A DNA stretch of 64,000 bases. Origin: Geranomyces variabilis (lineage: Eukaryota > Chytridiomycota > Chytridiomycetes > Spizellomycetales > Powellomycetaceae). Made by a program: the position numbers and the translations under genes. The stretch is taken from assembly GCA_027603065.1 (NCBI GenBank), contig JADGJP010000030.1, positions 279,704 to 343,703 of the forward strand, given 5' to 3'. The notes below the pieces were generated by a model, which searched no databases, was not told the DNA's origin, and was given only the letters and a program-made list of their open reading frames with translations. Below are positions 41,856 to 55,820 of the stretch, one piece after another (positions within the stretch are counted from its first letter, which is position 1; the number at the start of each line of letters is the position of its first letter).

Positions 41856-44079
41856 ATGCACGGGAGCAGCAACAGCAGCAACGCCAGCCCCAACAACACT
41901 CGCTCGCAAGAAGTCCACGCTACATCCCCCGGCTGGATCGTTAGACCTACGCCTCCTTCCTCTCCTCCGCCATCTGTCCCCGCTTCTGTTATGGACGGCC
42001 CCGTCTTTGCCGCTTCGGATTCCTCGCCAATGGACGTCGACACTCCGGCAGCTCCCCACCCAGATCTCTCCGCGATCCTCGATGACGAGGCCGAGCTTGC
42101 CGAAGTTGCTTCCACGCCCTCTGATAGCGATACCGAGCCATCGTCTGTGTCAGGCCGTGGCAAAAAAAACCCCGCGCCGCAGGGCTGCTGCGTCGAATGC
42201 GAGGACCAGCCCGCGGAGTTGTTTTGCGAGCAGTGTGCGGACGATTTCTGCGAAGTGTGTTTCTTCTCACAACATCGCAAGGGCAGTCGAAAGAAGCACG
42301 CCACAACAAAGCTGCTGGGTGCAAATGGCACCTCAAAGAAGAAAGCTAAGCGGGACGACGTCAACACGTCGTCGTCTGCTCCGGCCAACACCGAGTCTGA
42401 CGATGAGGCCGCAGCCGCAGCGGCGATGAATGACTGGAAGCTGCTAGGCGAAAAGCCTGCCGCTAGGGAAGCTGTCGGCTCGTGGTTTCTCGAACGCGCA
42501 AAGTACATTCCTGTGAGGCTGACACTGGAGGAGCGAAAGTTCCTCCGCTTGCTCGAAGCCGCGCTCGGCGTCTCCGAATACACCGACAAAATTGACATTT
42601 TAAGTTATGGTAGTAAGAGCAAACGTATCGTGGCTCAAATCAAGGAGCTTTGCGCGATCCTGTCGGGCTTGGTGCTGGCGGCAGACTACAAAATTGGGCA
42701 GGAGCTGTTCCAAGATCGCGACTTTTCAAACAACGCGGAGTTCTTTCAAGAGATGTGAGTCCTGGGTGCTCAGCTTTGCGCGAAAATTGGCGAGTCTGGG
42801 TACTCATTGGGCCTGCTGTGCAGTTTTGAATTTGGACGGAGACACAAAATCATGAACCCCGAGAAGATGCGAACTTCGTACGGCAAGCTCATGTACATGC
42901 TGCAAGATTCCATGATTCCGGAAGTCAGGGAACTCTTGTCGTTTGCATGTGTTAAGCCTATTCGCACAGTCTACACTGTTCTTGCAGAAAACGGTGGTCT
43001 GGGCGTATTGGAAGACCCACTCATTGGCCCAGCAACTCAAGAGGTGCTTTCAGAGGGCCGCACACGCCACGCCGTACAAGCCGAAATCAAACTCAAAGAG
43101 CGGGCAATTGAGCAGTTGGCGCGCAAGCACGCGACGAGTAAGCTCAAGGGCGACACAATCCGCCAATGCCTGTACAGCATCGGTGACAACCACGCATTTC
43201 TGCGGGTCAATCGGGATCCCTGCGATCGGATGATTGCGTATCTCCAGCGGTACTTCAAACCGGATTCGGAAGAAAAGGGCTTCTCGTTAGCGATTCGAAG
43301 CGGGAGGAGCGGTGCACGTCTGTCTCACGACCACTCAAAGCAGTACGCCTACGTTCTTCAGTCATTGACGCTGTGGCGCGAAATCATGCAGGACATGTTC
43401 CAAGTGTGGATGCTTGCCGAGCAGGACTTGTTGAGCGAAAACTGCGCCTACCGCCTTCGCGATACGGGCCAAGGGCTCAACCGTGTGCAAGCCGCGCCAA
43501 AGGTCAGCCGAATGATGCACACCATTCTGCATCGCGCCTCGCAAAAAGTCCCTGCAGTCGGAAGCCAAGTCATCCACTTGGGCGATAATGCCGTGCCAAA
43601 CGCTCTTACCTTTATCGACAAGTACACACAAGTATACCGGATCCTTCTTCCGATCTGCACGACCCTCTCCCGCCTCCCTGATGTTATTGCTCACGACGCG
43701 GGAGTTGCAAAATATATCAAGTCGGAGTTTGGAGACATCGAATGTTTGACAAAGACAATACTGGCAGACTTCTTTAGAAGCGCATTCGACGGAAGCGGTG
43801 CCGACAACTTTTTCGGTGAGGATGCGTTTGCACTTGTGCAACAGAAGAGATCTGTTTTTATTGACAATAAAATCTCCATTCTTTCTAGACGCTGGAAGCT
43901 GTATCGACGGCCGTCTCACCTCGGCCTGGAATTGGACAGCACAAATCGAAAAGAAACCTTTCTTCCCCGTCTTCTTGCTTACCGGGTACGCACAAGTATT
44001 CCTTCTGTTGTGTTTCATAATGACGCTATCTGACATATTGAATTCATATAGGTTCGTTGGGTTTGACGGCGCCTGGTAA
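41856..44079 (+). CDS. B-box zinc finger plus DUF2009 protein (UPF0652)
   Basis: Conserved eukaryotic protein of unknown biochemical role. A Ser/Pro/Ala-rich, acidic N-terminus precedes a B-box-like zinc finger (CCVECEDQPAELFCEQC, then DFCEVCFFSQHRKGSRKKH). The DUF2009 domain covers most of the rest: YGKLMYMLQDSMIPEVREL, IGPATQEVL, SIGDNHAFLRVNRDP, SLAIRSGRSGARLSHDHSKQ, YVLQSLTLWREIMQDMFQ, DTGQGLNRVQ, VIHLGDNAVPNALTFIDKY and FDGSGADNFFDAGSCIDG, each nearly invariant in the family. Three introns are inferred (about 42757-42823, 43817-43887, 43987-44051); the last gives the family end GFVGFDGAW. Confidence 0.93.
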
Positions 44080-44321: not shown

Positions 44322-45351
44322 ATGGCGCCTAGGAAAAAGGACGCAACGTCCGCTACTACAACACAACCATCAGCAACAATAGCATCACCGCCAACGGCTG
44401 CCGCAGCCGCGCTCAACGATGCCCTCAACGTCCCTAGCGTGCCTGTTGTCCCCTCCGCATTTTGCGTTGATCTAGGTAGCGCCTTCATATGCGCAATCAT
44501 AAGTAACCTACACTTGAACTCACAACACCCCTATGTTATTCACTTAAAGGAAGCAATCCAATCATTGTCAACAACTCCAGTGACTCTGAGCTCAAACATG
44601 CTCTCGACGATGCGCTCAAAAAAGTAGAGTCCCGCCCGCCGCCGTTGACTGTGCAGAATGCATTCTCAAACACCACTCTCAGGTCCTCGTTCAGGACTTC
44701 AGCTTTATAGAAAACCACACGCACACCGACACCCGCCTGCTGCTCGGCTACGCGTCTGTCCTGTTTGCCGCCGCTGCGTCGGCTTACTCGTACGTCGTGC
44801 CGTTCCCGGAATGCAAGCCCGTACTCGCGGTGTGCGTCGCGGCCTACTTTGTGCTGAATGGGGCAATGGTGGGATATACGACGTTTGTGGAAGGCAATGT
44901 GATTTTCCGCGGTGTAAGGAAGGATGTATTGGGATTGGTGAGTTGGGCGGTTTCGCTGGTGGATACGCGAGTTTTTCCTTTCCCTTGTCGAGTTACTTTT
45001 GTCGAGGGAACCACATGATTCTGTTGCTAAAGCTTTTTGTTATAGGACCCGGATGAGTTCATTACAGTCCGCACCACACATGAGCAGTTCTCGTCTGACG
45101 TTAAAATTGAGTTTTCCTTCGGCAACGACACATCCAAGACGGCCACGCCGACATCTGCGGCAGGCAAAAAAGCGGCATCCGCAGCCGCGCAAGCGAAAGA
45201 GGGAGCTGCGGTAGCAGCGGCAGGCTCGCGCGCTGGAGTTGTGACGCTTGTCAAGAGTTTTGGGGCATATTATGATGTGGACGGGCGGCTGTCGGGCGAG
45301 GCGCTGATGCGGGATGTTGCGGGCGTGTTGCGCGGTCGCAAGGCAGATTAG
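44322..45351 (+). CDS. SPC2: Signal peptidase complex subunit 2
   Basis: SPC25/Spc2 is a two-span ER membrane subunit that supports signal peptidase and contacts the Sec61 translocon. Exon 1 is Ala/Thr/Pro-rich. After an intron (about 44478-44551) comes NPIIVNNSSDSELKHALDDALKK. An intron inside what otherwise reads VESRPPPL (about 44626-44691) joins it to VLVQDFSFIENHTHTDTRLL. The two spans are GYASVLFAAAASAYSYVVPF and VLAVCVAAYFVLNGAMVGY, followed by NVIFRGVRKD. The cytosolic C-terminal domain is DPDEFITVRTT to LRGRKAD, with an Ala/Lys-rich insert. Length and topology fit the family. Confidence 0.85.
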
Positions 45352-45993: not shown

Positions 45994-46438
45994 ATGAAGC
46001 TTAAAAAGGAAGACAGGTTATGCGAGGAACCCAGCAACGAAGATTCTTTAGCGGATAGTATGCAAAGACGGGAGGCCCCGCAAAGTTGCGGGGTGCGTCA
46101 GTCTCACTTCGCTTTTCTCAGAGCTGAAGGTCACGGAAGTTCTTGGCAACGCCGCCACGGCTACCAAGCAGCGCAACGAGAAGATCGCTGCGACCACCGC
46201 CACCGTCGTTTCTTGGGCCGTCGAAGAGATCAAGAAGCACATTGAAACTCAAGCGGATTTGACGCACAACTACGATATCGCAATTTCGCAACCCGACTCC
46301 GGACTGAATTGTTGCGAGCAGCGAGTCCGTGCAGAGCCGAGCCGTGTGCTTGGAGAGACAGGGTGGAAAGTCACCGACTTGAATGTTACGAAAGAGCATG
46401 CGGGTCCCAGACTATCCCACAGCAAGGGTTGGTCGTAG
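45994..46438 (+). CDS. Tandem-array small protein, copy 1 (C-terminally divergent)
   Basis: Two exons, about 126 residues, family not recognised. Exon 1 (45994-46057) encodes MKLKKEDRLCEEPSNEDSLAD and ends with a single A. The phase-1 intron (46058-46121) has AGTCTCAC 14 nt before its end. Exon 2 begins K-L-K-V, aligning with K-I-x-V in the other copies. It then has TKQRNEKIAA, NYDIAIS, SRVLGETGWKV and ends SKGWS. It keeps the Q-RN, Y-x-I and GWK positions but lacks the WP-x-EM motif, so its 3' part may have shifted frame. No downstream hairpin is visible. No signal peptide or membrane span. Confidence 0.6.
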
Positions 46439-46914
46439 CAGAATGGTCGCCTCCAAGCTGCTGACTGTTTTTTTTTAGTCCATGCCTGTTTGGAAAGGAC
46501 ACATTTTGTCTCCCCATCTATTGCACCACTGCTTCACCCACTGCTTCGCCTACGCGCTCGCCACGGTCAGGGCGCTCGAGACCTCTGGAGGAGGGCATGA
46601 CGGCGCCAATGGCCTTTTTTTCCGCATTTCCATGGTGCTCTGATTGATCGGCGGCGCCCAAAGATAGGTCTGCAAGTTTTAGCACTGAAGTAAGAATCCG
46701 TTTTTGGTCGGATCGAATGGTCGCGCTGGTTTTCCAACGGCTGCTACGCGGACCTCGCTTAACTGATCTTTCTCAAGCGGTGCCTGGGCCTTGGAACTTG
46801 TATCGAGTACCTGCACCGGTGCACACAAGTTGCAGGGCCTTGGCACCCCTTGGAGAAGCATGAATCTTATATGTTACGCTCAGTAGAGTGCGAAACAGTT
46901 GTAATGTCTCCTAG
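46439..46914. other. Interval between array copy 1 and the HNH gene
   Basis: No supported gene, although open frames exist on both strands (for example minus 46679-46861). The missing first exon of the HNH-like gene may lie here; I could not place it. Confidence 0.4.
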
Positions 46915-47630
46915 ATCGAGCAACGCGAAGGATTCACATGCCCGATCACAGGCGCAGCGTGCAAGCGCATTCACCCTGGTGCCCAAGTTGCGCACTGTGA
47001 AGTGGCTCACATTTTCCCCTTTGAGTTAGCTGCCTACGTAAGTTGCAAAGGTCCCAATTGCAACATTTAGGTATCCCATGTCTCCGCCCTCAAAGGAGAG
47101 CTCCTCGGCTTTCTTCTCAGATCACGCGCCTATCACGCCTGATTTACCCGCATGAAATCTTTCGCCTTTTGCGCGCAGGGGCAAACATCAATAGCCTTAG
47201 CAACGGCTTGCTTCTGAACGCGTGCGCTCACAAGGGCTCTTTTGGCGTGACGTGGTGGATCGAGCATCATGTAATTGTGCGCGTATGTATGTGTGTGTGT
47301 GTGTGTGTGTTTGTACCGATTGAGGAAAAGCTTGACATAATGGGTCTCTCGTGCTACAGGGAACCGAGTACCGCACCCAAAACCCAGACGGCCACGCGTA
47401 GGGGTTTTCCAGACCAAGCACTGCTAATATTCCGTGAGCCTGCGCCGGATCCAATGCTTGTCAATCTTAGCGCTTGTATGGGTCAAATACGGCTTGACCT
47501 AAAGAAGCTTGGACTGTGGGAGGCGGCCGGAGAGAGAGACGACTTGTTTGACGACGACGACCCACACTGGCAGCCAGAGCAACGCCCAGTCACGGACGAC
47601 CCGTTTGATATGCCGCCCCTCGTAATCTGA
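46915..47630 (+). CDS. HNH-nuclease-domain protein (5' end not found, possibly decayed)
   Basis: An exon starting after a TAG acceptor at 46912-46914 encodes REGFTCPITGAACKRIHP and EVAHIFPFELAAY. It joins (intron about 47038-47110) to ITRLSRLIYPHEIFRLLRAG and ANINSLSNGLLLNACAHKG. These form an HNH pattern: Cys pair region, A-H-I, N-G-L-L-L and a terminal H before FG. The tail has PAPDPMLVNLSACMGQIRLD and an acidic end DDPFDMPPLVI. An intron with a (GT)n tract follows EHH; after it the frame of GTEYRTQNPDG conflicts with that of the tail, suggesting a frameshift or a missed splice. Similar fungal HNH proteins are often uncharacterised or element-associated. It lies inside the small-protein array. 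Confidence 0.55.
47287..47310 (+). repeat. (GT)n microsatellite in an intron
   Basis: A TATGTATGTGTGTGTG-type repeat just after the inferred donor of the HNH-like gene, similar in placement to the GT tract in the calcipressin intron. Confidence 0.6.
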
Positions 47631-48482
47631 GGTCGTTGTTCAGACATGTGAGGGGCGTGGGTTTTGCTTGGTCAGGGTCTCGATGTGAAGCCAGGCGCAA
47701 AGCGTGGTTGAATGGATAGTATAACGTCGACCCATTCTATGAACTGATAAAGTCTCGTCGGGACAACTTTGTAATCGATTCTTATGGGGTTTGAGGGACT
47801 TCTTTCCAACGGCCAAGAAGAAAAGGGGAGCAAGCGGGCTGTCGACAAGCGCGGTGGCGGCTGGCGCGCAAGGGACACACCCAATGGACTTGTGTCCGAT
47901 TGTCAGTCATTCATGACTCATTGCCAGTTGAACAATAGGGGTTACCCGTAGTTCAGTTGCTAACGAATCATACCCGGGTGGCCCTCTCACATCCCCCTCA
48001 GATTCCGTTACAGAAGGTAAGGAATCTCCACGAGGAGGGTATCCAGTATGAATCGAAACGTAGCTGTCGGCGGCAAAGAGCGTCGGCCGTATCACTATTG
48101 TCCAGATTCGACAGCCACAGCGTAACTCCGACACGTACGTAAGCCTGCGCCCAGCGGCCGCCATGCCGCCTGTCAAACTTCCACATCAACGAGATGGCAT
48201 CAGATAACCGCAGCCCCTTGGGCGTACAAGGCCATGCAGGACCGTGCGAGGCCATGCGGCGGCTATACCGAGAAATCCCCTGCCAAGATCGAGTGTAGTG
48301 ATATAGTCGCGAGTAGGGATACCTGGCATTGCACCAATGCACACGTGCGGTATTAACGGTGGCAGGCAAGCAGATCAGCCGGACCTTAGTAGGCGGTGTT
48401 GGCCAGGGCATTGCACCGCGGTTTCCTTCTATAAAAAGAGTCTGTTAGACGCCGCTTTTCTTCCAAGTGCTCGCGCCTGCCA
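47631..48482. other. Intergenic before array copy 2
   Basis: 852 bp without a supported gene. A minus-strand frame (47998-48411) lacks recognisable domains. A TATAAAAAG box at 48431-48439 lies about 50 bp before the copy 2 ATG. A TGACTCA (AP-1/Gcn4-type) site occurs near 47914. Confidence 0.5.
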
Positions 48483-48943
48483 ATGGATCCTACAGTGAAA
48501 AGTAAGTCACTCAGGCGTAGACCCAGTTTCGCCCGCGGCGGTCTCATTCGTCTCAATAAGAACTCGACGTCAGAGACTTGATGGACAAGGCTTAAGCTTT
48601 CGCTGTGGAACTAAACAAAACAGCCAGGACCGAGGCTGCCACGCTTTGCTCGCTGACCGCCGACCAGATCTGCAAACACATTTCCAGCAACAAAGTAGCC
48701 CGGACCTACAACATTGCGTTCACGCTGCCCCACTCGCACAAAGTATCCCGCGCTCGACTGGAGGAGGAGCTCAAGCGCGTGCTTCGCGAGGCGAGATGGG
48801 GGTTTACCAGAGCTGGAGTCTACGAAGCACCTACGCCACTGCATGACTATGAAGTCCCGAAGTTTCGATTCGACATCGCTATCTCGTGGCCGGACGAGAT
48901 GAATGACAAAGTCTCAGCGGAGATTGCAAACTCGTGGAAGTGA
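48483..48943 (+). pseudogene. Tandem-array small protein, copy 2 (one in-frame stop)
   Basis: Exon 1 (48483-48501) encodes MDPTVK plus one A. The phase-1 intron (48502-48560) has GGTCTCAT 13 nt from its end. Exon 2 reads KLDVRDLMDKA, then TAA, then continues in the same frame AFAVELNKTARTEAATL, HISSNKVARTYNIAF, LEEELKRVLREARWG, AISWPDEMNDKV. Over the first 52 positions it aligns without gaps to copy 6, and the TAA falls where copy 6 has Leu, so a single base change explains the stop. An alternative acceptor (AAG at 48596) would remove the stop in frame and give a protein of about 121 residues. Status is therefore pseudogene or isoform-rescued gene. Confidence 0.6.
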
Positions 48944-49004
48944 ATTTTGTGCAAAGTGGTGGAAAGATTGACCAGTAGGAAGTTTCGGAACCCCGCTTTG
49001 AGTC

Positions 49005-49025
49005 CGCCGAGTCTGTTTTGCGGCG
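49005..49025 (+). repeat. Conserved hairpin after array copy 2
   Basis: CGCCG, 11-nt loop, CGGCG: a perfect 5-bp stem 62 nt after the copy 2 stop, in the context GTC-CGCCG-A. The same geometry recurs after other copies. Confidence 0.75.
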
Positions 49026-49378
49026 TGGAAAAAGTAAAAATCCCTTTCATATGAATAGCCGTTGTGTCGTGAATGTATATCATGAAAAAGTGTTTGAATG
49101 TCACCTCCCACAATTCTCGATAGCAAGGTGGTTTCACTGACTGTCTTGATTTCCGCTCATACCTTCGATTCGTTTTGCAAGACATCAGGCAGCCAGCACG
49201 CCTGGCGACTTCCGTACGTAGCCAGAGATTGACAGCCCGCCCCATTTTCCCTCGAGAATAAGTTGAGTACTTACGATCAACAAAAACCGGTATGCGAGTA
49301 GACTGCAAAAGCTTGCGAATGTTTGTCCGCACGGCTGTCAACCTGGTTGTCCATGCGGTCTCGACATCCGTGTCACAG

Positions 49379-49565
49379 AAATGTTCGACAAGGTTTACGC
49401 TGCGACAGCTACCTGGGTTGCCCACATATGCGCGGCGATGGCCAGCGACATTTGCGAGGACATATCAAGAGTCACTTTGAGCGAACGCTGCACCATCGAA
49501 ACTTGAAGCCACTCAGTGTAATTCAGGCAGAGCTTCGACAGCTGAGAATTACTATCCAAGTGTGA
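49379..49565 (+). pseudogene. Tandem-array small protein, copy 3 (decayed)
   Basis: An acceptor at 49377-49378, with GGTCTCGA 14 nt upstream, opens exon 2 as K-MFDKVYAATATWVAH, IRVTL-like SRVTLSERCTIET, then TGA at 49504. About 10 nt on, the frame shifts and KPLSVIQAELRQL matches the helix before AGWK in copy 6 (RVIEAEIRRVL). The AGWK and WP-EM parts are missing, and no exon 1 ATG is found. This is a truncated, frameshifted relative. Confidence 0.65.
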
Positions 49566-49590
49566 ATGAGTCACAAGTCAAGTCGTACCC

Positions 49591-49607
49591 ATGGTCTCAG
49601 ACGTTCG
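49591..49607 (+). promoter_or_regulatory. Shared upstream element of array copy 4
   Basis: ATGGTCTCAGACGTTCG ends 90 nt before the copy 4 ATG. A 15/17 match lies at almost the same distance before copy 5. Confidence 0.5.
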
Positions 49608-49697
49608 TCCAAGCCCTGTTCATGTCCAAGCGTTGTTGCCTGCCCCACCTTCCTCTCTAACGCACTTCAATTTTCCTCCCCACTCGCGATTGCGATC

Positions 49698-50182
49698 ATG
49701 GACGCTCTGACCGAACCATCCAACAACGAGGACCCTTTCGTCCAGAGTAATCTGTCAGCTCTCTTGATCTAATCATCCATCCACGTCGGTCTCACTCAAT
49801 TTTTCCAGAAATCAAGGTCGAAAACATGTTTGTCACGGCAATGGCCACTGTAGCACAGCGAAACAGAGAGGTCGCCATCAAGGCCGCTGTGGAGGCCGCC
49901 GCTCTCGTCGAAGATTGCTCGAAGGCTATCGATGCCATCTACAATCACATCTCGAACGACCCACTCAAGGACCGCTACTCCATTGATCTGGACGTGCCTT
50001 ACACCGTGAAACTGCAGAAAGAGGTCGAGCATCTGCTTTGTGATGCAGGTTGGAAATGGGCGAAAGTGCATGCGAGATCCGTCGATGGTAAAGTGAAGTG
50101 CAATGTAACGCTCAAGTGGCCAAAGGAAATGGCTGGACGCATCAGGAACGGGCTCAGCAGCGGCTGTTCCTCGATTCTCTAA
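49698..50182 (+). CDS. Tandem-array small protein, copy 4 (intact)
   Basis: A 140-residue protein in two exons. Exon 1 (49698-49746) encodes MDALTEPSNNEDPFVQ plus A. The phase-1 intron is 62 nt (49747-49808) with GGTCTCAC 13 nt from its end. Exon 2 starts KIKVENMFVTAM, then TVAQRNREVAIKAA, an Ala/Glu-rich helix, AIDAIYNHISND, RYSIDLDV, LQKEVEHLLCDAGWKW and NVTLKWPKEMAGRI. Predicted layout: long N-terminal helix, strand (Y-x-I), amphipathic helix ending in AGWK, strand pair with W-P-x-E-M, short helix. No signal peptide, membrane span or known catalytic motif. Likely a cytosolic or nuclear protein of a lineage-specific family. Confidence 0.75.
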
Positions 50183-50217
50183 GATATGGAGTGTTTTTAC
50201 AAGCAAATGCCATAGTC

Positions 50218-50238
50218 CGCCGAGTATGTGTGACGGCC
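50218..50238 (+). repeat. Conserved hairpin after array copy 4
   Basis: CGCCG, 11-nt loop, CGGCC: four of five stem pairs kept, 35 nt after the stop. Confidence 0.65.
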
Positions 50239-50287
50239 TGAGAATGTTATGGCTATTTTGAATGAAGAATCGAAATTAATCCTGCAG

Positions 50288-50304
50288 ATGGTCTCAAACG
50301 TTGG
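50288..50304 (+). promoter_or_regulatory. Shared upstream element of array copy 5
   Basis: ATGGTCTCAAACGTTGG ends 94 nt before the copy 5 ATG, matching the element before copy 4 at 15 of 17 positions. Confidence 0.5.
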
Positions 50305-50398
50305 GTCGCGAAGCGTGGATTCTTTTCCCTCACCCTCTCCTCCGCTCTTTCACCCCGCATCGCACTCTCCTCGTCCCAGGTACCTTTTCTCTTTGAAT

Positions 50399-50900
50399 AT
50401 GCACACTCTGAAGAGAGCGATGTCCAACAACCAGGTCCCTTTGGTTCAAAGTATGCCAGTGGAACCTTAAACCTTTTTTTGCGATGTGCCGCCTACGCCC
50501 TGGTCTCACATTCATTCACACCTCAGAAATTAATGTCGCCGACATGTTTGAGACAGTCCTCGCCGCAACTGCACAGCGAAACCAGGCAGCCACTGTAGAG
50601 GTGGCCAATATTTGTGCCTCTTTCGTCGACGCTGTTTATGACCAAATCTCAGCTGCCAAATTGGCCGACGTCTATGTCATCAAGAAAGATGTAGGGCAGA
50701 TCAAAAATACCCTTAACTTGGCTTTTCTACAGCAACAGATCCGGTGTGTGCTCCTAGCCGCGGGTTGGAAAGTGCTTTTATTGGAATTGGACGACGAAGA
50801 TGGCTTGGACCCGAATCACACCGTGCACGCGAGGCTCGAATGGCCGTCTGAGTTCAGCGTCCACGTTCACAGCGAAATCGACAACGCGCGCTATCCCTGA
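50399..50900 (+). CDS. Tandem-array small protein, copy 5 (intact)
   Basis: A 141-residue two-exon protein. Exon 1 (50399-50450) encodes MHTLKRAMSNNQVPLVQ plus A. The phase-1 intron is 76 nt (50451-50526) with GGTCTCAC 17 nt from its end. Exon 2 begins KINVADMFETVLAATAQRN and continues with an Ala/Val-rich helix, VYDQISAAKLADVYVIKK, LQQQIRCVLLAAGWKV, an acidic loop (DDEDGLD) and ARLEWPSEFSVHV, ending NARYP. It shares its promoter element with copy 4 and its C-terminal end with copy 6. Family unknown. Confidence 0.75.
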
Positions 50901-50925
50901 TTTGTCGCGAACACCTCCCGTGGTC

Positions 50926-50946
50926 CGCCGAGATAGTTCAGTTAGT
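50926..50946 (+). repeat. Half-decayed hairpin after array copy 5
   Basis: The GTC-CGCCG-AGATAGTTCAG half is present 26 nt after the stop, but the 3' arm reads TTAGT instead of CGGCG, so no stem can form. Confidence 0.5.
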
Positions 50947-51648
50947 GATGTTAAAATTGTTATCAGCTCCTCGTCGTCAATAAACTGGCAGAAATTTGGA
51001 ATGAGTCACAAGATGAGCACTTAGGGACATGCGCCTGTATTGCTGATTTCGCCCGCCCGGTCACTGCGCCGTACACAAGTAAGGCGATGAGAAGGCGGGG
51101 TCTGGTCAGTTGAATGACACGTATTGTTATTGCGTGGTGTATGATACCGTCAGCGCGCTGTCGGAAACGGCCCAGGTGGGCAAGGTGGCTTTATTTAACG
51201 TTCACATTTGGTTCAAGTTCCACCGATGTTCTGCCCCGTTCAGCTCCCTGACACTCACGGTCCTTACTCGAGACCCCGACAGTCCATCGTCCGGATGATA
51301 ACAAACAGAAAGACCATTGCAGCCCCATTCCTATCACGATACCACCAGTTCTTGCAGCTAGTGCACTTGTCAATAAAGCCGCTTCCGAGTTTCCGCCAAG
51401 TTTCCACAAAAGACACAAGCATGGGTCGAGAAAGCCCCTTGTCGCGCCATCCGCCTCCCGAAGATCGTTATGTTGCCCCTTCCATGCATTCAACCTTTCC
51501 ATGAACGGGTCTTCCAAAAAATGGGGGTCTTAAAAGCAGTGTGTCTCGCATCCAAGTCCTTCAACCGGCTCCAGAGGTACGTGAATCATCCCTTGACAGT
51601 CAGCGTCAATGTTTATCTGCAGTTTCCACACCCTTGGCGAGCCAAATA
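50947..51648. other. Intergenic before the first MITE
   Basis: About 700 bp without a supported gene. AATGAGTCACAAG at 51000-51012 repeats a string found at 49566-49578; it contains TGAGTCA. A tract near 51560 precedes the MITE. Confidence 0.45.
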
Positions 51649-51745
51649 CAGCAAGTGGACAAAAGTCGGAGACCCTCCTAAATTCACAGGCAGAGTGCAC
51701 CGCGCGGCGGCCGTGAGGGGGTCTCCGACGTTTGTCCACTGGCTG
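51649..51745. mobile_element. Mariner-type MITE, copy 1
   Basis: 97 bp bounded by TA on both sides (51647-51648 and 51746-51747). Its terminal inverted repeats are about 27 bp and start CAGC, followed by AGTGGACAAA and GTCGGAGACCC, with only a couple of mismatches. It has no coding capacity. CAG ends and TA target duplication fit Tc1/mariner-derived miniature elements. Confidence 0.8.
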
Positions 51746-51848
51746 TATGTAGTTTAAATAATCCAACGGAGCGCGATAAGGGCGATTGACATGCAGATTT
51801 GTTGATAGGATAAGCTTGCTCGCGACTGCGGTGATTCTCGTGCGATAA

Positions 51849-52472
51849 TCATACGGCCATCTTTGGTTTCGGTCGAGCGATGTTTTTGCCGAGGTTCTTG
51901 TAAGCGTACGTGTAGGCGTCGCGTGTGAACGAGTCGGGTTCTTTGGAATGCCGTGCGCTTGTCATGGCGATAATGTGGTACACCACCTTCTCATACATCT
52001 CATCAATGATAAAGGCCAAGTCCGCAATCAGTAAGAGGTCGTTAGAGTGTCGGCCGTGCATGTTCTCTGGCGGTAGTGCTTTGGCTCTGATCAAGTGATT
52101 TCGAAGTCGACCGTGAAGCGTTGTTTCATCTGCTACAACCAGTGGACAGAAGTCGGAGACCCCCCAAAAAATTTCACAGGAAGAGAGTGCAGTGCGTGGC
52201 GGCTGTGGGGCCCTCCGACTTTTGTTCCTTGGCTGTAGCTTTGGCGTATCCCGCTTTGCTTCTTGTGCTTTGTTTTTCTCGTTCCGTATGACTTTTGGAA
52301 GCGCGCCTTTCTCGACGTTAAAGCACCGCCGATACAGTTGCTCCTGAAGCAGAGACAGCCCCACAAGGGCCTTTTGCAGATGCGAGACCGACTCAACAGC
52401 CTTGCCATTGATGGGTTGCGTTGGATCGCCTTGATCCATCCCGCTTTCTCCGCCGTCGTCAGCTTCTTTCAA
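51849..52472 (-). CDS. Uncharacterised ORF carrying an in-frame MITE
   Basis: A minus-strand open frame of at least 207 codons; it is open upstream to about 52590, so its start is unknown. Left of the insertion it reads KALVGLSLLQEQLYRRCFN and EKGALPKVIRNEK. The MITE (52136-52235) then contributes 34 codons, and the frame resumes with ADETTLHGRLRNHLIRAK, NDLLLIADLAFIIDEMYEK and ends LGKNIARPKPKMAV. I recognise no family. The C-terminal part has the composition of a helical globular domain, but a real gene is not proven. An alternative reading puts the coding sequence of the upstream part in another frame. Confidence 0.4.
   Translation of the reverse strand: MKEADDGGESGMDQGDPTQPINGKAVESVSHLQKALVGLSLLQEQLYRRCFNVEKGALPKVIRNEKNKAQEAKRDTPKLQPRNKSRRAPQPPRTALSSCEIFWGVSDFCPLVVADETTLHGRLRNHLIRAKALPPENMHGRHSNDLLLIADLAFIIDEMYEKVVYHIIAMTSARHSKEPDSFTRDAYTYAYKNLGKNIARPKPKMAV
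52136..52235. mobile_element. Mariner-type MITE, copy 2
   Basis: 100 bp flanked by TA (52134-52135, 52236-52237). The left end is CAACCAGTGGACAGAAGTCG, and the right end inverted is CAGCCAAGGAACAAAAGTCG. The internal part matches copy 1 (GAGTGCA-x-GCG-GGCGGC). It lies 390 bp from copy 1 and is more diverged at its termini. Confidence 0.78.
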
Positions 52473-53520
52473 AATGACTGCGACAATGCTTCTTGCAGAA
52501 ACGCTATGATGGTCGTAACCTTCAGGGATTTGGTGATTTTTGTCGGTACAAAGTACAATTGTCCGATAAGCCCGTTCTGGAAAAGTTACATTAGATATTT
52601 ATCAATGCGATCATCATTGTCTCAAAAATGCGTACCTCGAATGGAGCTCCTTTCGGAACTTTGCTCCCTTGAAGTATGAGATCAACGGCTACTCGGGCTT
52701 CCGGGCAAAGCCCAGACAAATCCACATTCTCTTAAGACTCAGTGCCAGAGGAATGTGCCGTCCACAGTTGCAGCTGCAAAGGTGCCCAATGCGCCGATAC
52801 CATGCAGACCGCGAACATGACTGTTTCGGGGACAGAATTGTTATTTTGCGCTTCCGCGCTCTGCACGTCCTTTTGTTAAAGAAAGGCTTTGGCTGAGATT
52901 TGCCGAACCGTCGTCCGATGCCTCTCGGCGGTCAGCTTTTGAACGCATTCCTCCAAGAGCTTTGCGTTGCGATCCACCCAGGACCCTCCGGGAGCAGCGA
53001 TGGCGGCTTTTTAAGCAAACTTCTCTGCCAAATGGATCCCTTGGACGGACAGAAGGTCCTCTTGTCCTCGGTCTCTAAAAAGTCCAACGGCCGGCAGTGG
53101 ATCTTGTTAAAAAGAAGGAAATGAACTCAAGTGATCGCACGGGTATAGCCGCCACTGCCAGTCGCTTGTTTACAGTGATTTTCAAGTATTGTAGAACTCA
53201 AATCGTTGGACCGGTTGCTTGTACCTTGCCCGTTTTTGCCTCAGGCTCTGAAGTGCATATGTACCGAATAGGCTTGATCTTGATGCAGTTGGTTGCGACG
53301 TACAATGAATATACTGAGTAGGAGCGGTTAACCTCCAGTCCGCAGAGTTAATTTAACGGCGTGAAAGTGAGAAAATGACAGAACCATGCCCACGTGTCAG
53401 GTTTGTGTCCTGGTGTCGGTCTCACTCGTCTCGCTGGTTCTGCTTCAACAGTTGCTCTCCGCTGTTTTTGGCAGCGCTCATCGCCTGGTCTTCCATTTCC
53501 TCTGCATCATCTCGTCGACC
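52473..53520. other. Degenerate interval with a probable lost array copy
   Basis: No complete gene is supported. On the minus strand, strings such as GSWVDRNAKLLEECVQKLTA (about 52995-52936) and LILQGSKVPKGAPFE (about 52695-52640) look coding but are broken by stops. On the plus strand, DRTGIAATASRLFTVIF (about 53135-53185) vaguely resembles the N-terminal helix of the array family, and the array's hairpin follows at 53341. This may be a decayed seventh copy. Confidence 0.35.
53341..53361 (+). repeat. Array hairpin without an intact gene
   Basis: CGCAG, 11-nt loop, CGGCG: the same length and context (GTC before, TG after) as the other copies, with one mismatched stem position. Confidence 0.6.
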
Positions 53521-54026
53521 ATGAACGTCGCTAGCTCCGACAACCAGCAGTCAACCAGCCTGAATCCCGCCTGTTACGATCGCCTCGTTCAAAGTAAGCC
53601 AGCCAGCGCTGCGTCGAGCGTGACCCGTGGCCTTTCACGCCGGTCTGACCTTGCTTTTCAGAAATCAAAGCTACAGACATGATTGATAAGGTCCTCGCCC
53701 GTACCGCCGATCGCAACAGCAAAGCCGCTGCCAAAATCATAGAGTGTTGTTCGCATGTTATTGACGCCATCAACAATGAGATATCAAGCTCCAAAATAGC
53801 CCAGCGTTACACCATCAGCACATTTCTGCACGTCAAGGGACAAGCCTCCTTCCGCGTAATTGAAGCAGAAATCCGGCGTGTCCTTGAGGATGCGGGCTGG
53901 AAAGTTATCGAGGCGGTGGTTGAACCCCTAGCAAGCCTGCGACCGGGGTTCCGCGGCACGATCGAGTGGCCGAGTGAAATGACGGAGCTGGTCAACAAGG
54001 AAGTGAGGAAGGCGCTCTATCCCTGA
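53521..54026 (+). CDS. Tandem-array small protein, copy 6 (intact)
   Basis: A 145-residue two-exon protein. Exon 1 (53521-53593) encodes MNVASSDNQQSTSLNPACY, DRLVQ and one A. The phase-1 intron is 68 nt (53594-53661) with GGTCTGAC 12 nt from its end. Exon 2 starts KIKATDMIDKVLARTADRN and continues VIDAINNEISSSKIAQRYTI, RVIEAEIRRVLEDAGWKVIE and GTIEWPSEMTELV, ending RKALYP. It aligns gap-free with copy 2 through the first 52 residues of exon 2. It is the cleanest copy and a good reference for the family. Function unknown. Confidence 0.75.
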
Positions 54027-54046
54027 AGTGGTTTGCGACCTCAGTC

Positions 54047-54067
54047 CGCCGAATTAGTCCAACGGCG
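54047..54067 (+). repeat. Conserved hairpin after array copy 6
   Basis: CGCCG, 11-nt loop, CGGCG: a perfect stem 20 nt after the stop. Confidence 0.75.
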
Positions 54068-54539
54068 TACAAAGTGCAGTAGTCTCTTTCTTGTGTTCTT
54101 TTGTCGGAAACAGTTCTCTGAACATATTGCGGTCCAAAATATTGTTTTCCGTGTCGGTCTGCCCGTGCTCTTATGTCTAACTAACTCAATCGGTTGTGCT
54201 CTTTTCCGTCTCAAACTTGCTCCTCGTTCCTTCTTCCAAGTTTCATAGCGAGCGCCTAGGGTGCAGTTCCCATGGTCCAAAGTACGAAGGCGTCTCACCA
54301 GTCCCGCAATGGTTGCACCTGCCCAGCCAGTCGGTCTAAACTACAAGGATTCTTTGCTCTGGCCTGTTCATTTTCATTTTTCTGACAGCGATGAAATGAC
54401 TCAAATGAGGCGTGCGACAATAGTTGATAGTGACGTCATTTTCGCAAAACTCAAAATCGTAAAACAAAAGCTCGGAGTCAGCGGGCGGCCGCACCACCGC
54501 ATTTCGCATTCTGCCCATTGCCCGCATTCCAACCGCAGC
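54068..54539. other. Right flank of the array
   Basis: About 470 bp between the last hairpin and the DUF1206 ATG. The DUF1206 frame stays open upstream to 54261 with further ATGs (54309), so an N-terminal extension is possible, but it has no family-like sequence. Confidence 0.45.
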
Positions 54540-55820
54540 ATGAGGTTTTCTTTCTCATCAAAGCCCAAGGCCAAGGATAGCGCCGCCGACCACCACCACT
54601 CTTCATACCCCGCACAAGACTCCCCACAAGCAATTCACAACGCCCAACACCAACATGCCCACTCCGCCGCAATAGCCCGCGACCCCGAGGAAAACGGATG
54701 TCTATATTGCATCCACCGACTGCGAAGGCCGCACGGCGTTAGTCCACGCTGGAAGAAACTCGAACGCATCATTGGGCGCGTTGGGTTTGCTGCAAAGGGC
54801 GTTGTCTATGGCTTTGTCGGAGGCATGACATGTGCGAGCGCGAGCAAGCTGCATGAGGGTTTGGAGAACAGTCCGCAGGGCGCGTTTGTCATGATTGGCA
54901 GTGCGCCGAGTGGGAGCTGGGCCTTGTTTGTCATGCTTCTATGTGAGTCCAAAGCAAGGGGAGGAAGCCTATGTGCATTTTTCGCTTGTCCATGTCCTAA
55001 CCTCCCTTCTCTCCCATCTTTTTCCTACAGCCCTCTGGTGCTATTCGATATGGCGATTCTGGGAATTTCTCACTTACCAAGGCCGCGACGCCACGTTCGG
55101 CAAAGCCAAAAACTTTTTCCGCTTCCGTCTGTCCCCTCTAGTCTCTGGCTGCGTCTACATCGCCTACTCCTATTACATCCTCACCATGCTGCTCAACCGA
55201 TACAAAAACCGCCAACCAAGCTGCTACCCAAACTGTTGGCGCGACACCACGCTCGGAACCATCATGCTGGTCCTGATGGGCACCGCGTTTATGATTGCCA
55301 CGATCACGCAATTGCAAAATGCGTTTACGAATAAGTGGCATTCGGAGATTAACTGGGGTCTGTGCAAGACGAAACCGGGGCGGTATTTGTTGCTGGGATT
55401 GGGACATGTTGGGTTTTTGGGCCGAGCGGGCATTTTCCTCTTTGTTGGCATCCTCATGTTCAAGGTAAGGCAAGGCAATGAAAGAGTGTAATCGCACAGC
55501 CCAACGATGCGTTGGCGCGCGAAAGCAAGCACTCACAATGCGTTTTCTTTTTCCCTTGTCTTCTTCTTCGTTAGGCTTTGAAACACCCTGTTAAGCAATC
55601 GGGAGACACGATCGCCGACGGCCTTGGTCAGCTCATGGACGGCAACGATTTCATGGTTGCGATTATGATGATTGTCGGCCTGTGCACCACCGCATACGGC
55701 CTGTTTGCGCTGCTCAATGCGCGGTACCGCTATTTTCCGACGCCACCGCCAAGTGGGCAGCCGTATGTGCGCAGCAACCCTTCGCTGGAACGTCTTCCGC
55801 GTGGGAGACGCGGGACATGA
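54540..55820 (+). CDS. DUF1206 multi-span membrane protein
   Basis: An integral membrane protein of unknown function with the DUF1206 repeat of paired helices. After a His/Ser-rich cytosolic N-terminus come KKLERIIGRVGFAAKGVVYG, then a W-x-LF-VMLL helix, ALWCYSIWRFWEFLTYQGRD after an intron (about 54942-55030), LSPLVSGCVYIAYSYYILTM, a second RYLLLGLGHVGFLGRAGIFL repeat, and DGLGQLMDGNDFMVAIMMIV to YGLFALLNARYRYF after an intron (about 55465-55574). Six membrane segments are expected. The family is mostly bacterial, with scattered fungal members. Cysteine-rich CLYCIHRLRR precedes the first helix. Confidence 0.8.

Follow-up and report, generated by a model that had tools for sequence, protein, structure and literature searches.

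A tandem array of fast-changing two-exon genes in Geranomyces variabilis and the predicted fold of its proteins

Small-protein genes repeated side by side raise the question of whether they belong to a described family and why their copies differ so strongly. We address this for an array on the plus strand of the chytrid Geranomyces variabilis, located at positions 45994-54026 of the stretch of 64,000 nucleotides that was analysed (the window). The array contains five two-exon copies, c1, c2, c4, c5 and c6, and the relic of a sixth, c3.

Gene copies and a 3' element

The genes and exons are as follows.

45994-46438, plus strand: c1, whole gene
45994-46057, plus strand: c1 exon 1, phase-1 exon
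46122-46438, plus strand: c1 exon 2, C-terminus shortened and W-P motif lost in this strain
48483-48943, plus strand: c2, whole gene
48483-48501, plus strand: c2 exon 1
48561-48943, plus strand: c2 exon 2, with a single in-frame TAA at 48593-48595 in the simplest model
49366-49500, plus strand: c3, relic of the helix region of exon 2 (profile E 2.7e-4), after which the reading frame breaks
49698-50182, plus strand: c4, whole gene
49698-49746, plus strand: c4 exon 1
49809-50182, plus strand: c4 exon 2, intact; protein of 140 aa
50420-50900, plus strand: c5, whole gene
50420-50450, plus strand: c5 exon 1, start taken from ortholog P0002; another in-frame ATG lies at 50399
50527-50900, plus strand: c5 exon 2, intact; protein of 134 aa
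53521-54026, plus strand: c6, whole gene
53521-53593, plus strand: c6 exon 1
53662-54026, plus strand: c6 exon 2, intact; protein of 145 aa

The tandem array is confirmed. A GT..AG intron of 59-76 nt, in phase 1 at the end of exon 1, is common to all five copies, as expected from the original prediction of one exon structure on one strand. The splice joins of c1, c4, c5 and c6 match public gene models from other assemblies (P0002, P0003 and P0007-P0009), which are probably themselves predictions. The spliced exons of c1 encode 126 aa that equal P0005 residue for residue, compared with 147 aa in the c1 orthologs P0007 and P0009. For c2, the copy predicted to carry one stop, the public model P0004 has a sequence that implies splicing to a later acceptor, by which the TAA is skipped. 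The predicted count of four intact or near-intact copies holds if c1, with an intact reading frame lacking the W-P end, is placed beside c4, c5 and c6. One or two relics had also been proposed; c3 was recovered, but the second, an exon-1-like sequence near 54272, had no profile support and was rejected.

The paralogs are 25-37% identical, and I65, Y74, L99, W104 and W127 are invariant across the 11 aligned sequences. Two motifs had been described as shared. AGWK is found in c4, c5 and c6 but is replaced by TGWK in c1 and ARWG in c2, and the W-P-x-E-M motif occurs as WPxE[MF] in c2, c4, c5 and c6 but not in c1, the end of which is lost.

A 27-nt element is found 3' of several copies, with no further occurrence in the genome outside the array.

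49001-49027, plus strand: 3' element after c2
50214-50240, plus strand: 3' element after c4
50922-50948, plus strand: 3' element after c5, of which just the first half is present; no match of the full pattern
53337-53363, plus strand: 3' element with no gene ahead, a possible ghost of a lost copy
54043-54069, plus strand: 3' element after c6

A stem folds in the elements of c2, c4 and c6; the ghost has it in disrupted form and c5 lacks it. We therefore speak of an element and rejected the hairpin as a proven RNA structure. The lone element may mark another lost copy.

Extent of the family

The family profile was built from 11 sequences, including the five window copies and leaving out c3. When all six frames of the window were scanned, the five copies scored E 1.1e-36 to 8.5e-49, values that hold by construction because these copies belong to the profile. 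Besides these and c3 nothing in the window scored below E 5, and the best match in the reversed window had an E of 2.1. Single orthologs from other strains, used with no profile, recover the paralogs with E values as low as about 1e-10; thus, the likeness of the copies is beyond chance.

The original prediction expected relatives only in related fungi and often in tandem. All nine matches at E <= 1 in a profile search of proteins, which was word-based and so limited in reach, were from G. variabilis, with P0001, P0004 and P0005 being this strain's own. A second profile search returned four matches, all from G. variabilis and all already known. The searched database contained SPC2 of both G. 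michiganensis and Powellomyces hirtus. When the strain's own genome was queried with four single proteins, matches were confined to the array.

The proteins had been called unrecognised, and no described family in Pfam, NCBIfam, PADLOC or PHROG fits them, with PADLOC giving zero matches. We discarded weak Pfam matches to FAZ1_cons (0.0096), Mur_ligase (0.0088), PepSY_2 (0.027) and others, which vary from member to member; those to Mur_ligase, PepSY_2 and their companions fall under the curated cut-offs. Weak NCBIfam and PHROG matches likewise vary from protein to protein. Among PDB sequences, the whole-chain match to 8vd6 (E 2e-5) is the sum of five repeats, each with an i-Evalue above 100, and matches to the MS2 coat protein and 2jna are at chance level. 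Also set aside were three rows at E 7 from a tblastn search of P0003 against phages and three sub-threshold Rfam matches, taken as chance. Listings of literature on Geranomyces variabilis (by title), on giant viruses and chytrids and on orphan arrays showed nothing on the family. Judged by these sequence searches, the copies appear to form a new protein family, so far known only from Geranomyces variabilis.

Tandem gene families that are taxonomically restricted and evolve by birth and death are a known kind. The chytrid array resembles them in occupying one locus in one species, with divergent paralogs and losses. It differs in that its duplications predate the strains and in the retention of a family-specific 3' element.

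Speed and pattern of protein change

For each of the five copies, at least one other assembly contains an ortholog. The duplications are thus older than the split of the strains, and the birth of copies is not recent. Loss of copies, the other half of the proposed birth-and-death turnover, is visible. Identity between window copy and ortholog is 65.6-82.8% in all six pairs compared with 97.3% for the neighbouring gene SPC2, a contrast made at the protein level and calibrated on this single gene. Of the suggestion that the family is old or fast-evolving, this supports fast evolution. Gap columns are absent from c5/P0002 (134 aligned residues, 24 replacements), c6/P0003 (145 aligned residues, 25 replacements) and P0007/P0009 (147 aligned residues, 43 replacements). 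Comparison between strains shows that the proteins change fast, with lengths kept in intact pairs and some copies lost in this strain.

Rapid change could simply reflect weak selection. In such a case, a dispensable family that formerly had a minor role would now be drifting and dying. We regard this as somewhat unlikely, and it is the alternative that survives best. The lost end of c1, the stop in c2, the c3 relic and the lone 3' element in this strain all suit it, as do paralog differences that are only mildly periodic across codon positions 1, 2 and 3 (0.46-0.58, 0.36-0.51 and 0.56-0.63). However, differences are fewer at position 2 than at position 3 in all six paralog pairs, the three pairs of intact orthologs align without gaps over 134-147 residues despite 17-29% replacements, and the five invariant residues persist in all 11 sequences.

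AlphaFold2 models of two copies predict a single long helix followed by beta-alpha-beta-beta-alpha (mean pLDDT 83.7 and 83.0). The two folds agree, though both models were built on the same 11 sequences. In the models, one of two invariant tryptophans follows helix 2 (AGW) and the other precedes helix 3 (WP). The 179 sites of the sheet strands and loops L2 and L4 are replaced more often than the 208 sites of the long helix (difference 0.16, permutation p 0.0004; 599 pooled sites from 5 pairs). Alternate positions of strands 1 and 3, counted from 73 and 120, carry replacements in 19 of 40 cells versus 5 of 30 (one-sided p 0.007); these faces were picked once the table had been seen, on the basis of alternation instead of coordinates. 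Strand 2 showed no such alternation (6/20 versus 6/20). Within the long helix, the second half has replacements at 9 of 26 sites in c2/P0006, 6 of 26 in c6/P0003, 2 of 26 in c5/P0002 and 1 of 26 in P0007/P0009. Protein surfaces are generally more variable than cores, and the replacement pattern is therefore weak evidence for conflict.

Possible roles and origins

Fast change relative to the neighbour while one predicted shape is kept makes a part in molecular conflict possible. Our tentative proposal is that the proteins, which are probably cytosolic, are scaffolds that combine a helical handle, which is conserved, with a face for recognition that changes fast. The long helix would be the constant handle, by which the proteins associate with themselves or dock on a partner that stays constant. 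The outer sheet face and loops would form the recognition surface, diversifying from copy to copy and from strain to strain. The array might then supply a small set of intracellular proteins that bind or act as decoys while a conflict goes on, viruses or selfish elements being examples of the opponent. Two of the five copies, c1 and c2, look degraded in this strain, an observation that also fits relaxed constraint.

Could the family be a viral or mobile-element protein that was domesticated, its fold derived from a large DNA virus or a phage-like source and then amplified in the chytrid? For both models the nearest folds in a viral structure library are small, mostly uncharacterised proteins from phages and from many giant viruses (best E 6.8e-4 and 1.7e-3), including A0A076G6S3 (Bacillus phage Bobb), A0A8S5VN14 (Ackermannviridae sp.) and proteins of Satyrvirus and Clandestinovirus. 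The library holds viral proteins only, so cellular relatives could not appear. With the first model, top Foldseek rows have probabilities near 1, and the two best Bacillus-phage rows have TM scores of 0.51/0.59 and 0.50/0.63 at 13% identity. The Bobb row and other phage and giant-virus rows recur with the second model at lower TM; for A0A076G6S3, probability goes from 1.00 to 0.99 and TM from 0.50/0.63 to 0.42/0.51. This protein was tied to CDS AII27987 on length alone; Bobb has two annotated CDS of 111 aa, and the other, AII28118, does not look helix-first by eye. The one phage family compared, the 111-aa Agatevirus family, shows no sequence relationship to the array proteins by hhalign (probability 0.2%, 12 columns, four-sequence phage profile). 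A suspected GYxV..ISW motif common to phage proteins and the chytrid family was rejected, as the phage profile did not align; a scan for it among the ORFs of Lactococcus phage 1358 and of Bobb's first 50 kb returned one 88-aa Bobb ORF of other architecture by eye. Viral contigs scanned with one peptide pattern gave 24 matching stretches, with none confirmed as a relative. NCLDV capsid and VLTF3 families had no match in the strain's own genome or in any control genome, which is uninformative. The introns and housekeeping neighbours also speak against viral origin, which we consider doubtful. Slightly more doubtful still is a combined account in which a phage- or giant-virus-like fold was taken over and amplified as a diversifying binding or decoy array, an antiviral or anti-selfish-element locus with several copies sharing one 3' element. 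We know of no such system from fungi.

Ribosomal protein S6 and the ferredoxin-like plait are among the candidate nearest systems, as is Alba, the order of which is beta-alpha-beta-alpha-beta-beta. The first model has a weak PDB Foldseek match to T. brucei ALBA1 (7dl8), with which it has an alpha-beta-alpha-beta-beta core order in common. A nucleic-acid-binding protein of Alba/IF3-C-like architecture seems improbable on the modelled fold, in which the first strand is missing and an extra C-terminal helix is present (alpha-beta-alpha-beta-beta-alpha). Computed pI values of the window copies (4.9 to 8.6) indicate mixed charge, unlike a consistently basic binder, and there is no sequence match; Pfam gave no Alba family at E <= 10 for 5 + 6 sequences, HMMER filters dropping most matches above 0.1. 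Secreted effectors or toxins are very improbable even though the proteins are small, fast-evolving, tandem and lineage-restricted, since no hydrophobic N-terminus is seen by eye in c1, c4, c5 or c6 and Geranomyces variabilis is a saprobe.

The array defines what appears to be a new protein family, which has a confidently predicted fold, a clear locus, orthologs between strains and a rate contrast with the adjacent gene. If the proposed diversification is true, the array would be a sign of fast-moving conflict inside the cells of early-diverging fungi, in which, to our knowledge, little is known of defence against viruses or selfish elements. The family may also help to make sense of a fold seen repeatedly in phages and giant viruses, where it is mostly unexplained.

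Array copies, surroundings and occurrence

The genome around the window (23.8 Mb in 91 contigs) is that of Geranomyces variabilis, a chytrid of the order Spizellomycetales. The surroundings of the array are ordinary: a gene for a DUF2009 protein lies upstream, followed by the signal peptidase subunit gene SPC2, the array and a gene for a DUF1206 protein.

42759-44033, plus strand: DUF2009 protein gene (E 9e-141)
44323-45351: SPC2, signal peptidase subunit gene adjoining the array, spliced by us
45994-54026, plus strand: five array copies, each with a short exon 1, an intron and a long exon 2
51646-51748 and 52132-52239: short inverted-repeat (MITE-like) elements between copies c5 and c6, arms about 30 nt
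54540-55464, plus strand: DUF1206 protein gene (E 3.9e-6, first piece)

The arm pattern of the inverted repeats has 159 and 166 matches genome-wide with up to 3 mismatches versus 1 for the backward control, indicating an abundant element family that is present inside the array too. Between c1 and c2 there is a possible HNH_2 nuclease relic (46915-47630, plus strand; best E 0.0045, 17.3 bits, cut-off 21).

Exon 1 of all five copies is 19-73 nt long and ends in phase 1, and the introns are 59-76 nt, GT..AG. Copies c4, c5 and c6 encode 140, 134 and 145 aa. The shortened c1 (126 aa) has a translation identical to P0005 (HDU88_004866, Geranomyces variabilis). The simplest model of c2 has one TAA inside; the sequence of P0004, the public model of c2, implies a later acceptor that leaves this TAA out. 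The strain's public annotation also seems to fuse c4 and c5 (49698-50900) in one model, P0001, of 193 aa, and c6 of this strain has no entry among the protein-search matches.

With the family profile the five copies scored between E 1.1e-36 and 8.5e-49, values that hold by construction since the copies belong to it. The relic c3, independent of the profile, was matched at E 2.7e-4; the best match in the reversed window was at E 2.1. Paralogs in the window were also matched by individual orthologs of other strains, with E down to about 1e-10. The original observation of a tandem array stands: there are five plus-strand copies and one relic. I65, Y74, L99, W104 and W127 (numbering of P0003, from another assembly) are invariant in 11 aligned sequences.

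Searching 5.8 billion proteins with the profile yielded nine matches at E <= 1. All are G. variabilis proteins: three (P0001, P0004 and P0005) are encoded on the contig of the window, and six belong to other assemblies. Because the search relies on 5-residue words in common, it could miss distant relatives. A second, broader profile gave four matches, all previously known members. Four single-protein searches of the strain's own genome found no match outside the array, and a search of viral contigs with one peptide pattern gave no confirmed relative. The protein database covers Geranomyces michiganensis and Powellomyces hirtus at least partly, since it includes the SPC2 protein of each. Within the reach of the search, the family is new and restricted to G. 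variabilis.

History and rate of change

Every copy has at least one ortholog in another assembly: P0007 and P0009 for c1, P0006 for c2, P0008 for c4, P0002 for c5 and P0003 for c6. Window copies are 65.6-82.8% identical to these orthologs and 24.8-37.4% identical to each other. From these identities rather than from a tree, we infer that the duplications predate the strains. P0002, P0006, P0007 and P0008 lie on one contig of 371524 bases; the longest contig listed for the SPC2 ortholog P0010 has this length too, consistent with conserved synteny. All the observed orthologs of c1 and c2 (P0006, P0007, P0009) are full length, so among the strains compared the degradation of c1 and c2 is particular to the window's strain.

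SPC2 and P0010 share 97.3% identity (7 of 262 aligned residues differ, with 1 gap column), whereas 17-34% of residues differ in all six window-ortholog pairs of the array, with a minimum nonsynonymous change per site of 0.08-0.18. This contrast of about 6 to 13 fold is a rough estimate, as it is calibrated on SPC2 alone and P0003 and P0009 lie on a contig of a different assembly from that of the SPC2 ortholog used. On this one gene, the view of the family as fast-evolving is supported. P0011, SPC2 of a further G. variabilis entry, has 90% identity, and the G. variabilis 'strains' may therefore include distinct lineages.

There are no gap columns in c5/P0002 (134 residues), c6/P0003 (145) or P0007/P0009 (147) despite 24, 25 and 43 replacements, which counts against plain decay. 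The c4/P0008 pair has 9 gap columns; the 23 and 28 in the c1 and c2 pairs come largely from the shortened end of c1 and from comparing c2 only downstream of its stop. In 6/6 paralog pairs, codon position 2 shows fewer differences than position 3, although the latter is near saturation.

A shared 3' element

A 27-nt element, AGTCCGCCGAGTNNNTTNNRCGGCGTG, stands downstream of c2, c4 and c6 and alone at 53337. These were the only four matches in a whole-genome scan (up to 3 mismatches); the backward pattern gave 0. The first half is present at c5 and, judged by eye, none at c1. A short hairpin can be folded from the element in c2, c4 and c6. Its copies are 70-81% identical to that of c2, better kept than third codon positions of the paralogs (37-44% identical). 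The element is therefore probably functional, with a role that would lie in mRNA 3' end formation or stability, or else homogenised.

Distribution of replacements on the fold

In AlphaFold models a long helix precedes a beta-alpha-beta-beta-alpha arrangement. When 599 sites from five ortholog pairs were pooled, replacements were more frequent in the sheet strands and loops L2/L4 (179 sites) than along the long helix (208 sites), by a difference of 0.16 (permutation p 0.0004). One of these pairs uses c2, a possibly dying copy with 9/26 sites replaced in the helix's second half. Other helices were intermediate (0.24 each), and the N-terminal tail, covered by one pair, was most variable (8/12). 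Alternate positions of strands 1 and 3 were replaced at 19/40 versus 5/30 (one-sided p 0.007) in a test devised after the table had been inspected; strand 2 showed no alternation (6/20 versus 6/20). On the predicted model, this pattern suggests that the helix stays largely constant while the face of the sheet changes.

Two adjoining uncharacterised genes of Bacillus phage Bobb (37520-38502) encode proteins of 111 and 212 aa, lengths both found among viral fold matches of the array model. By eye they seem related, the likeness lying in the latter half of the 212-aa protein, and tblastn with the 111-aa protein matched two places in several of nine Bacillus phage records.

The function of the array proteins we infer: the changing sheet face would be tied to molecular conflict. 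The array illustrates a lineage-restricted, fast-changing family well, and its fold lifts it above the routine.
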